From Moraxellaceae bacterium (GTDB lineage: Bacteria; Pseudomonadota; Gammaproteobacteria; Pseudomonadales; Moraxellaceae): a stretch of DNA of 64,000 nucleotides. The stretch covers positions 62,001 through 126,000 of the forward strand of contig JAJUIK010000002.1 of the NCBI GenBank assembly GCA_029267635.1, written 5' to 3'. Below are positions 9,404-12,843 of the stretch, one piece after another (position 1 is the first letter of the stretch; every line of letters starts with the position of its first letter). Both the position numbers and the translations under genes were made by a program. The notes beneath the pieces are model-generated. The model did no database searches. It was not told the origin of the DNA and worked only from the letters and a program-made list of their open reading frames with translations.

Positions 9404-10258
9404 TCAATTGTTGATCTCGTGATTATTTAAGGTCTCTAATGCAATCCTTTTGGTTTCTGGACTGACAAAAGCGATAAATCCTGAATTTAATACAGTGTCC
9501 CGTTGATTATAAATGAAAGGTTTACCCTCTAAAGTCAGCAATCCACCACCGATACTTTCCAGTAATCCTTGGCCTGCACTGGTATCCCATTCAGAGGTTG
9601 GATGGAAACGTGGATAAATATCAATTTCACCTTCTAGCATCATACAGAATTTATAGGCACTACCCGCTTCGCGTCGCACTACCGGGGTATGTTGCTCAAT
9701 GACCTCGATATACTGTTGATAACGCGCATCCTTACTGTTATGACTCAAACCGATTTGAATAGCTTCCGTTGGTCGAGGCTGCACCACATATTGCAACCAG
9801 TTTTGCTGCGTGAACTGATATTTATACGGTAGGTCATTGAGATATCCCAGATAAACCACCTGTTCACACGGCACCACAATCACCGAGAGAATCGTTTTAT
9901 GCTGCTCAATCAGACTCAGGTTAATAGTAAATTCATCACGTTCATGAATAAACTCTTTAGTGCCATCAAGAGGATCCAGCATCCAGCATCGCGTCCATTG
10001 ATGTCGTTCTGAATAATCGCTTTCTTCCGATATCACGGGAAGCTCAGGCGTGATTAGAGCCAGCTGACTGAGTAAATAGGCATTTACTTTGAGATCGGCT
10101 TGCGTCACAGGTGACTGGTCATGCTTTTCATCAATATCAAAGTCTTGACCCGCACAGTACGCTTGATATTCGTCTAGCAGAATTTGTCCCGCCTGTTGCA
10201 GAACCGGCAGTAACCTCAGCATTAAACCATCAGTAGGTGCTAGCGTTTTGACAAACAT
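9404..10258 (-). CDS. cysQ: 3'(2'),5'-bisphosphate nucleotidase CysQ
   Basis: The 284-residue protein belongs to the inositol-monophosphatase superfamily. PVISEESDYSER gives the metal-binding Glu, WMLDPLDGTKEFIHE the DPLDGT metal/phosphate site, and SEWDTSAGQGLLES the third motif with the WD. The GTKEF variant is typical of CysQ, which degrades 3'-phosphoadenosine-5'-phosphate made during sulphate assimilation. It starts at an ATG at 10258 and is followed by the histidine phosphatase. SuhB-type inositol phosphatase is an alternative but fits the motif less well. Confidence 0.92.
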   Translation of the reverse strand: MFVKTLAPTDGLMLRLLPVLQQAGQILLDEYQAYCAGQDFDIDEKHDQSPVTQADLKVNAYLLSQLALITPELPVISEESDYSERHQWTRCWMLDPLDGTKEFIHERDEFTINLSLIEQHKTILSVIVVPCEQVVYLGYLNDLPYKYQFTQQNWLQYVVQPRPTEAIQIGLSHNSKDARYQQYIEVIEQHTPVVRREAGSAYKFCMMLEGEIDIYPRFHPTSEWDTSAGQGLLESIGGGLLTLEGKPFIYNQRDTVLNSGFIAFVSPETKRIALETLNNHEINN

Positions 10259-10689
10259 ACATTACCTATATTATTTATGACTTGAAGTGAAACTTCTTTA
10301 GCATTCAGATCCATTCCCAACCAGCCAATCCCTGTTTTTACGGGCAATATCATTTACCGAGGAAGATTTTCTTGCTCCACTCTGTGATATGAGTTGCCGC
10401 ATCTGTCCGCATCTGTCCGCATCTGTCCGCATCTTAAAATACTATGCAAAGAATAGATATTAGGCTTTCAGACTACATCTGCAGAAATCCAGTTTTTCCG
10501 CCTGTAAAATGAATTCTACTTTCTTGATCATAGAAGATCATACTGTTGTATATGGTATTTTCAGATCAAGCTATGGATGATCTCGCTCTATTGCATACCT
10601 ATTGAGAACGCTCTAATCTTGAAAGGTTTCAAATAAAAAGAAAATTTAGTTTTCAGCACCACTACTTTAAAGTTGCCGGAGAACAAAAT
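10259..10689. other. Divergent spacer between cysQ and the CDF transporter gene
   Basis: 431 bases without a credible gene. It should hold both divergent promoters. The only marked structure is a decanucleotide tandem repeat at 10398-10434, listed separately. No operator could be assigned. Confidence 0.6.
10398..10434. repeat. Decanucleotide tandem repeat, three full units plus partial
   Basis: The unit ATCTGTCCGC occurs three times head to tail (10401-10430), with CGC before and ATCT after continuing the pattern. It lies ~140 bases upstream of the cysQ start and ~256 upstream of the transporter start, outside any gene. The unit count is likely to change by slippage. Confidence 0.95.
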
Positions 10690-11796
10690 ATGAGTGGTTG
10701 TAATTGTCAATCCAGCCCGACTGTTACCGTCAAAACAACCTTATCTCCTAGCGATGAAAACTCATCAACACAAATCAGCCTATATCAAATCCATCAAATG
10801 GACTGCGCTGCAGAAGAGCAGTTGATCAGGATAAAACTCTCCCGTTTAGATCAAGTCCAGCATCTTGAATTCGATTTTCCCCAAAGAAAATTAAAAGTTT
10901 TTCATGATGGCGATACAGCAGAGATCACAGCACAACTAGAAAGTTTAGGTCTAGACGCTAAATTCATTCAGCAGCTTGGTCCTGCCCTACAATCGACAGC
11001 CGCATTTTCTAGCCGATATCATATTCCACAGATGGACTGCTATGCTGAAGAACAAATGGTACGCTTAGCTCTCGCTCCAATTCAAACTATCCACCATCTT
11101 GAATTTGATTTGCTGCAGCGTACGCTTGACATTCAGCATAACGGTGATGCAACTCTGATAACCACCACTCTGGAAAAATTAGCTCTAGGTGCAACCCTAG
11201 AGTCCACTCAGTCTATTCATGTCACAACTCATGTGCCAGCAAGCCATCAGCAACAGCAGAGGAAAGTACTGCTCACGCTTTTAGCCATTAATGCTATTTT
11301 GTTTTTCATTGAGTTCATCACTGGTATTCTCGCTGCTTCTAGCGGACTGATTGCAGATTCACTGGATATGTTTGCAGATGCTGCCGTATATGGAATAGCG
11401 TTATATGTGGTAGGCAAAGCAAGCAAGTATCAATTGCGTGCAGCTCATATTTCTGGCTGGCTACAATTGGTTTTAGCCCTTAGTGTCGCCCTGGATGTGG
11501 TCCGGCGCTTCCTGTTTGGTAGCGAACCGGATGGCAGCCTCATGATGATCATCAGTCTGGTCGCACTATTCGGCAATGCTGTTTGCCTGTATTTAATTTC
11601 TGGCCATAAAGAAGATGGCGTACATATGAAAGCGAGCTGGATTTTTTCTTCTACCGATGTCATGGTTAATATCGGTGTGATTATGGCAGGTGTACTGGTC
11701 TATTTTACCCATTCCGCTTATCCTGATTTGATAATTGGGAGCATAATTATCTTGCTGGTGCTGAATGGTGCAGGGAAAATTTTAGCACTGAAATAA
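10690..11796 (+). CDS. CDF-like cation transporter with two N-terminal degenerate HMA domains
   Basis: The 368-residue protein has three parts. A short Cys-containing start (SGCNC) comes first. Then two ~75-residue repeats resemble heavy-metal-associated (HMA) domains, with QMDCAAEEQ (Cys39) and QMDCYAEEQ (Cys117); each keeps MDC but has Glu where HMA has its second Cys. From ~197 there are six membrane segments like the cation diffusion facilitator core: TM2 carries D223 and D226xxxD230, while TM5 has FSSTD, i.e. Phe319 where CDF proteins have His before Asp323. The cytoplasmic C-terminal CDF domain is missing; the protein ends right after TM6. A metal export role is inferred from the family. 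Monocistronic, behind a long divergent spacer. Confidence 0.8.
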   Translation: MSGCNCQSSPTVTVKTTLSPSDENSSTQISLYQIHQMDCAAEEQLIRIKLSRLDQVQHLEFDFPQRKLKVFHDGDTAEITAQLESLGLDAKFIQQLGPALQSTAAFSSRYHIPQMDCYAEEQMVRLALAPIQTIHHLEFDLLQRTLDIQHNGDATLITTTLEKLALGATLESTQSIHVTTHVPASHQQQQRKVLLTLLAINAILFFIEFITGILAASSGLIADSLDMFADAAVYGIALYVVGKASKYQLRAAHISGWLQLVLALSVALDVVRRFLFGSEPDGSLMMIISLVALFGNAVCLYLISGHKEDGVHMKASWIFSSTDVMVNIGVIMAGVLVYFTHSAYPDLIIGSIIILLVLNGAGKILALK

Positions 11797-11904
11797 ACTC
11801 AAAACCTGCTTCAATACCTTTTTTAAATCCTACTGAATAGAAAGATAGACCTTTTTTATTTGCAGTTAAAAGCATAACGTCTTACAACTCAAATTACAGA
11901 CAAT

Positions 11905-11930
11905 AAAAAAGCTCATGGATGAGCTTTTTT
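11905..11930. terminator. Bidirectional terminator between transporter and csp genes
   Basis: GCTCAT-GG-ATGAGC stem flanked by an A tract on the left and a T tract on the right, between two convergent genes, so it can act in both directions. Confidence 0.88.
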
Positions 11931-11946
11931 ACTAAAAATTTACTAA

Positions 11947-12159
11947 TTATTGAACGATAGAAATGCCGCTCGCTTGAGCACCTTTTTTACCATCAACAAT
12001 TGCAAACTGCACACGTTGACCTTCTGAAAGCGTCTTAAAACCACTAGTGGTGATTTCACTGTAGTGTGCAAAAACATCTTGACCTGAATCTGCTTGAATA
12101 AAACCAAAACCTTTAGTTTCGTTAAACCATTTCACAGTGCCGGTTACAGTATTTGACAT
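11947..12159 (-). CDS. Cold shock domain protein, CspA family
   Basis: The 70-residue protein is a single cold-shock domain: GTVKWFNETKGFGFIQ holds RNP1 (KGFGFI) and DVFAHYSEI holds RNP2 (VFAHY). It binds single-stranded RNA/DNA and melts mRNA structure. The ~200 bases before the start are AT-rich and free of genes, consistent with the long 5' leader usual for cold-shock mRNAs, though I could not define a cold-shock box. Which paralog (A, C, D, E) it matches cannot be told. Confidence 0.95.
   Translation of the reverse strand: MSNTVTGTVKWFNETKGFGFIQADSGQDVFAHYSEITTSGFKTLSEGQRVQFAIVDGKKGAQASGISIVQ

Positions 12160-12766: not shown

Positions 12767-12843
<77 letters not shown>

Follow-up and report, generated by a model that had tools for sequence, protein, structure and literature searches.

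A CDF-type protein with a tandem HMA head and no C-terminal domain, a probable cation exporter from a Moraxellaceae bacterium

The window analyzed here, a stretch of 64,000 nucleotides from a Moraxellaceae bacterium, contains at positions 10690–11796 of the plus strand one intact ORF with an ATG start that encodes 368 amino acids plus stop. From the ORF, Pfam profiles, and an AlphaFold model, the product was assigned as an HMA-HMA-CDF protein, a probable cation exporter without a C-terminal domain; by profile and six-helix fold it is a member of the CDF/Cation_efflux superfamily. It is best explained as an inner-membrane Zn(II)/Cd(II) exporter of a C-terminal-less CDF branch that carries a tandem HMA head of the Zn/Cd type, a reading to which we assign a probability of about two in three. 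Judged from the relatives compared, the whole family shares the site change, the single-Cys HMA repeats, and the lack of a C-terminal domain, and none of them sets the window copy apart. A CDF is normally pictured with a four-ligand site and a dimer domain at its C-terminus; the HMA-CDF family lacks both, yet it is widespread, and it offers a natural experiment on the requirements for Zn or Cd transport by a CDF. Members of the family are named only generically, e.g. "cation transporter," and among the papers listed in literature searches, which reached little of the subscription literature, none described an HMA-CDF fusion.

Domain architecture

The first HMA domain comprises residues 28–98 (10771–10983, plus strand, as are all features of the gene) according to model secondary structure, Pfam, and fold comparison, and it contains the motif MDCAAEE with Cys39, Glu42, and Glu43 (10798–10818). 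The second comprises residues 105–176 (11002–11217) with the motif MDCYAEE, i.e. Cys117, Glu120, and Glu121 (11032–11052). The Pfam HMA profile PF00403 matched the protein in two stretches with 41.7 bits (cut-off 24.8). Repeat 2 alone scored 19.6 bits, below that cut-off, and was assigned by the model, by fold comparison, and by BLASTP of repeat 1 versus repeat 2 (49% identity over 63 residues, E = 2e-21). The CxxC of copper-chaperone HMA domains is absent; both repeats read MDCxxEE. The CDF core (residues 184–365, 11239–11784) is defined by Pfam, model, and fold comparison and reached 53.3 bits with Cation_efflux PF01545 (cut-off 26.6). TIGR01297, which describes full-length CDFs of the YiiP/CzcD type, gave 65.6 bits, below its cut-off of 82.35; three relatives tested against it also stayed below (57.7–68.4 bits).

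The AlphaFold model, built from a 61-row alignment (mean pLDDT 89, pTM 0.69), shows two HMA folds and six helices and no further domain; it informs on the domains and not on the placing of head versus core. VIA-align superimposed the core on YiiP (8f6k) with Z = 21.4 and rmsd 2.2 over 184 residues, the match stopping at YiiP residue 203, and placed it on human ZnT structures as well, while the HMA domains matched the small HMA structures 1cc7, 1fee, and 3cjk (Z about 12). Foldseek agreed with this placement apart from its top row, ATP7B. This hit had the best E-value (7.7e-06) and was rejected as a chance combination of shared HMA domains and helices (rmsd 21.5, TM 0.21). The cytoplasmic C-terminal domain of canonical CDFs is absent from the window protein, both from the model and from the protein end, which lies three residues after TM6. 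Thus, the two single-Cys MDCxxEE HMA repeats, the six-helix CDF core, and the missing C-terminal domain that a previous sequence-only reading had proposed were all recovered by independent methods, and its own caveat, that the repeats might lack an HMA fold, could be discarded.

Metal site and family of the HMA-CDF protein

The window protein served as query for collecting relatives by similarity; 134 distinct CDF proteins, itself included, were drawn from 176 loci. Genome contigs were scanned with two peptide patterns, of which the best 80 of 566 hits were kept; one pattern adjoins Phe319, so that His variants are possibly under-sampled by it. A class-wide profile search is free of this bias and contributed loci for its best 30 places. 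By tail length, 125 of the 134 proteins have no C-terminal domain. They were sorted by a motif that requires F or C at one position and N or T at another, giving 114 proteins with Phe and 11 with Cys in place of the TM5 His; the tail after the TM5 motif is 44–69 residues long in the former and 53–62 in the latter. The nine proteins outside the motif have no HMA motif (0/9), a pattern search found a TM5-type HxxxD in four of them, and we take them to be other CDFs.

An 18-sequence profile of the core aligned the TM2 residues Asp226xxxAsp230 (11365–11379) with the His/Asp pair of ZnT8. In TM5 (Phe319-Ser-Ser-Thr322-Asp323, 11644–11658), the same alignment paired Phe319 with the His and Asp323 with the Asp of ZnT8 without gaps (E = 1.9e-9). 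ZnT7 and SLC30A10 gave the identical TM5 pairing, with weak scores for their TM5 pieces. The by-eye assignment of DxxxD in TM2 and FxxxD in TM5 was therefore right. In place of the four-ligand site A with His/Asp-xxx-Asp in TM5, for which YiiP served as comparison in the form given in the accessible text of PMC4995437, the window protein has Phe319xxxAsp323, i.e. Phe for the CDF His/Asp ligand. Asp226, Asp230, and Asp323 are present in all aligned rows save one gap, so that the window protein combines a core devoid of the C-terminal domain with a retained Asp-Asp-Asp set, the features that define a C-terminal-less CDF of the CdfX-like kind. A TM5 His occurred in none of the 125 C-terminal-less proteins. 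The possibility raised earlier that a His/Asp had been overlooked was pursued in the 92 HMA-bearing proteins, and none was found: all 92 distinct proteins with at least one MDC-type HMA, the window protein among them, have Phe at this position. Their 160 MDC motifs contain no CxxC and a single departure from EE, a count that covers only HMA domains in which an MDC or MEC motif is present.

A search for a fourth ligand among conserved D, E, H, C, and N residues of the core returned His312, Cys299, Asn296, Asn327, and Glu208, each in 113–114 of the 114 Phe-type proteins, and His253 in 95 of 114. Site A would probably consist of the three Asp together with water, a backbone group, or a polar neighbor (Ser320 or residue 322). 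At residue 322, where the class motif admits N or T, the window protein alone has Thr (codon ACC, 11653–11655) and the other 124 of the 125 C-terminal-less proteins have Asn, which is common to the Phe and Cys types and present in the nearest orthologue, from the genome G174. Adjoining the ligand Asp323, Thr322 is on this comparison the best-marked oddity of the window copy.

Such a site could also mean a changed mechanism: with three Asp only, the protein might work as an HMA-gated channel or facilitator of low affinity, or accept other divalent ions (Fe, Mn), instead of acting as a Zn/Cd-proton antiporter. The lack of a TM5 His in all 125 proteins fits this idea, while the retention of the three Asp argues against it; together with the gene context given below, we regard it as unlikely. 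A further option, less likely than not, is that the family forms a distinct class of CDF exporters that has dispensed throughout with the fourth site-A ligand and relies for metal delivery on a cytosolic, CadA-like HMA head; transport would then be gated by occupancy of this head in place of a C-terminal domain, and the Thr322 copy would be a natural variant of altered selectivity.

The 134 proteins carry no HMA copy in 42 cases, one in 27, two in 62, and three in 3. The three-HMA relatives (L106, L123, L132) were in Noviherbaspirillum and Oxalicibacterium, and a one-HMA relative, L022:1126–1929, is devoid of the TM1–TM2 stretch in the alignment. A frame of 3058 residues with an HMA pair in genome G024 proved to contain a stretch of N (8,360 of them across the locus) and was dropped. 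A tree of 74 of the 125 cores was rooted with the Cys type, leaving out near-duplicates at 94% or more, X-containing rows, L022, and L157. All proteins with an HMA domain fall into a single starred branch within the Phe type (43 rows, 100/98), and for this reason the HMA head was probably gained once, its copy number changing later. The window protein pairs with that of G174 (100/89).

In the class-wide profile search, 101 of 369 genomes matched at E = 1e-30 or better, many with HMA-less forms; a separate search within the same genus gave matches at 1e-35 in 77 of 175 genomes, and the own genome is counted in both. Among 72,556 plasmid records, 1377 matched the window protein, and in 388 the match spans at least 80% of the query; the shorter ones include many P-type ATPases in which the head alone matches. 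The HMA-CDF family is common in Acinetobacter and also occurs on plasmids of Acinetobacter and enterobacteria whose records list human sources. Four contigs recorded as Acinetobacter phage MD-2021a (H201–H204) match the window protein over 98–99% of its length; these phage-labelled contigs are possibly host or plasmid DNA.

Gene context in relatives and in the window

Partners were counted in loci spanning 6,500 bases or more, many of them closely related and from Acinetobacter. CadR relatives (blastp E = 1e-12 or better) turned up in 31 of 34 such loci where the protein has two or more HMA domains and in 5 of 10 where it has one. The CadR-type operator CTATAGTnnCTATAG (at most two mismatches, within 250 bases upstream) preceded 44 of 65 genes for proteins with two or more HMA domains, 9 of 27 with one, 1 of 22 HMA-less Phe-type genes, and none of 11 Cys-type genes. 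Among 334 unrelated ORFs that served as a control (250 aa or more), one had the operator, and its locus holds an operator-bearing HMA-CDF gene. A CzcA (RND) relative was found in 5 of 34 and 0 of 10 loci, respectively, most loci of proteins with two or more HMA domains reaching 4 kb to a side. On the Acinetobacter plasmid pALWEK1.1, the order is CDF, czcA-, czcB-, and czcC-like genes, a hypothetical gene, cadR, HMA-CDF, feoA, and feoB; a plasmid locus of A. variabilis has czc-type RND genes and feoA near the HMA-CDF gene. Gene names of the czcABC, cysQ-, csp-, and recA-like kind are labels by reading.

These loci bear on the changed-mechanism alternative in both directions. In its favor, feoA follows the HMA-CDF gene on both plasmids read and feoB on one, and a FeoB relative was present in 10 of 34 loci with two or more HMA domains (1 of 10 with one). 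Against it stand the CadR-linked control of most loci with two or more HMA domains and the net Zn efflux by CdfX, a C-terminal-less CDF, as far as described in the available part of PMC11580412.

A different possibility is a copper-related transporter or tolerance accessory, in which the head would take Cu and the core export or buffer it. Copper proteins are the best-known carriers of the HMA fold, and a copA-type multicopper oxidase (label by reading) was in 3 of 10 one-HMA loci and 2 of 34 with two or more HMA domains, a locus of A. nosocomialis (L124) with a family member being one case where it occurred. In a genome of the same genus, a one-HMA member stands directly after two genes read as copA and copB (L058). 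CDF cores carry divalent ions, which counts against copper, as do the uniform lack of CxxC in the MDC motifs and a context dominated by CadR. According to the excerpted text of PMC5346208, the A. baumannii CDF gene A1S_0709 apparently forms one operon with copA and copB and was induced 2.4-fold by Cu, in accordance with the copper alternative, but 2.9-fold by Zn and not by Zn plus Cu; its authors called its importance in Zn export questionable and also report an orthologue of it in the laboratory strain A. baylyi ADP1. Since L058 shows the same copA/copB order with a one-HMA member, A1S_0709 probably belongs to the HMA-CDF family. Taken together, a copper function seems quite unlikely.

The proposal of the sequence-only reading that the metal or the direction might differ from classical exporters is not supported: the CadR, operator, and czc context, the CadA-type ATPase head described below, and the published Zn export by CdfX point to ordinary Zn/Cd export. 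As for its other proposal, an N-terminal head serving as sensor or dimer interface in place of the C-terminal domain, a metal sensor or loader appears to be the most economical reading. For the preferred Zn(II)/Cd(II) exporter, the CDF core would exchange a cytoplasmic metal ion for protons like other CDFs, with export from the cytoplasm to the periplasm. Both MDCxxEE domains would capture cytosolic Zn or Cd by Cys and Glu, and the head would then load the core or lift an inhibition at high metal, thus doing the sensing that is done by the C-terminal domain in YiiP.

The window gene itself stands alone between minus-strand genes at 9404–10258 and 11947–12159, and neither a metal gene nor CadR lies beside it. 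The upstream intergenic region (10259–10689) contains no CadR-type operator within three mismatches, and the whole window gave no match with up to three mismatches. Hence a cadR neighbor and an operator, the hallmarks of a CadR-regulated metal-resistance gene that most relatives with two or more HMA domains show, are both absent from the window copy. A promoter scan of 10240–12000 returned two sites (shuffle mean 5.2), of which one lies upstream on the minus strand and the other within the gene. A perfect 10-bp tandem repeat, CCGCATCTGT, with 3.8 copies occupies 10397–10434 in the upstream region, which shares only short common patches with G174 in an alignment. PADLOC gave no match, and Rfam gave nothing near the gene but a tRNA; this is a tRNA-Met on the minus strand, downstream of the gene (12767–12843).

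The same neighbors flank the gene on both sides in G174, the nearest species, and the GC content of the gene is 43.4% versus 43.2% for the window; the gene is therefore not a recent insert. The window protein and its G174 orthologue share 65% identity (CDF core 77%, HMA domains 54 and 57%), versus 83, 83, 88, and 97% for four neighbor proteins. In agreement, dN was 0.27 versus 0.015–0.12 in these four; dS was about 1.8, near saturation, and dN/dS about 0.15. These values suggest either purifying selection less strict than on the neighbors or an adaptive change of the head. In seven proteins picked by hand, the number of Cys before the first HMA domain was 2 in the window protein and G174, 9–11 in L003, L036, and L066, and 3–4 in L063 and L111.

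The window copy might accordingly be read as a decaying or re-purposed relative that has lost Zn/Cd transport, on account of Thr322, seen in the window alone, the missing CadR operator, the raised dN, and the two Cys as compared with 9–11 in three Acinetobacter relatives, though the other two relatives have 3–4. The intact ORF, the same position and equally short N-terminus in G174, the low dN/dS (with dS near saturation), and the matching GC content make decay very improbable. The lone position without a metal gene, Thr322, the faster protein change, and the small number of RND loci are nevertheless counted against the Zn/Cd reading.

The own genome is a 2.45-Mb draft of 32 contigs, with the window gene on contig 22. 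It belongs to the genus Acinetobacter, as a matching place in a same-genus genome coincides with a position on the Acinetobacter contig NZ_KE340379.1. The only CadR match of the own genome is distant (27%) and adjoins a CopA-type ATPase. On contig C31 (L183, L184), a CopA-type ATPase with tandem CASC HMA domains has a MerR-family gene adjacent. Two P1B ATPases pass the cadmium model TIGR01512, yet they score higher as copper type (590.7 and 593.1 versus 397.6 and 387.4 bits), which is opposite to the CadA-type ATPase from Leclercia (copper 414.2, cadmium 500.8 bits). For RND proteins, TIGR00914 gave two matches in the genome, both below cut-off, and one other CDF, with a C-terminal domain, was found. 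With this gene complement, the window gene may carry much of the cytoplasmic Zn export of its host.

Comparison with known transport systems

The Zn/Cd export reading is preferred because of the CadR, operator, and czc context, the CadA-type head, and the Zn export by CdfX (Rmet_2299) of Cupriavidus metallidurans. In the accessible part of PMC11580412, CdfX is like the window protein a CDF without cytoplasmic C-terminal domain, lies near cadA/cadR, and is Zn/Cd-responsive; it accounted for net Zn efflux in a multiple mutant and is controlled by ZntR. The single cdfX deletion had no effect, and a role in Cd could not be shown according to the same text. CdfX had been placed in a lead-resistance cluster in 2010, as stated in the part of PMC2864759 at hand. 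It differs from the window protein in that the available text of PMC11580412 does not describe an HMA head, the comparison being one by published description and not by TM5 sequence; no Cupriavidus was among the records listed (60 of 844 and 40 of 188) in plasmid searches for its sequence.

Two further lines concern metal-related genes of Acinetobacter. A 2021 report is said to give the CDF gene czcE a part in cadmium resistance. In the accessible text of PMC8749419, czcE is a putative zinc exporter. Deletion of the G62 island in strain ATCC 17978, by which several genes were lost together, halved the MIC of Zn, Co, Cd, and Ni (PMC6070778, seen in part).

YiiP/FieF and ZnT8 share the six-helix core with the window protein, and the TM2 pair and the TM5 Asp of ZnT8 align with it; the window protein is without their C-terminal domain and TM5 His and has two HMA domains in addition. 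The N-terminal domain of the plant ATPases HMA2 and HMA4 binds Zn by an HMA fold with a CCxxE motif, and it resembles the window head in using Cys and Glu instead of CxxC, as far as the excerpts of PMC6305203 and PMC6255694 go. Because of this CCxxE variant, a single-Cys HMA need not mean an unfamiliar metal. The plant domains are unlike the window head in their two adjacent Cys and their location on an ATPase. To our knowledge, MmCDF3 from Maricaulis maris has no HMA head. Going by the title of Russell and Soulimane 2012, as cited in the available part of PMC4995437, it is a CDF without cytoplasmic domain that binds Zn and Cd.

The closest counterpart of the head is found in the CadA-type P1B-2 ATPase on a Leclercia plasmid (L179), which has a tandem MDCPTEE HMA head and is encoded beside cadR. 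Its residues 6–174 are 32% identical to the head of the window protein (E = 4.5e-19); L179 is the tandem-head ATPase that was read, others being represented as matches listed to residues 3–150. Unlike the window protein, this CadA has an ATP-driven ATPase core and not a CDF core. The HMA-CDF family also lends itself to testing whether a metal-sensing head can be exchanged between CDF cores and ATP-driven pumps.
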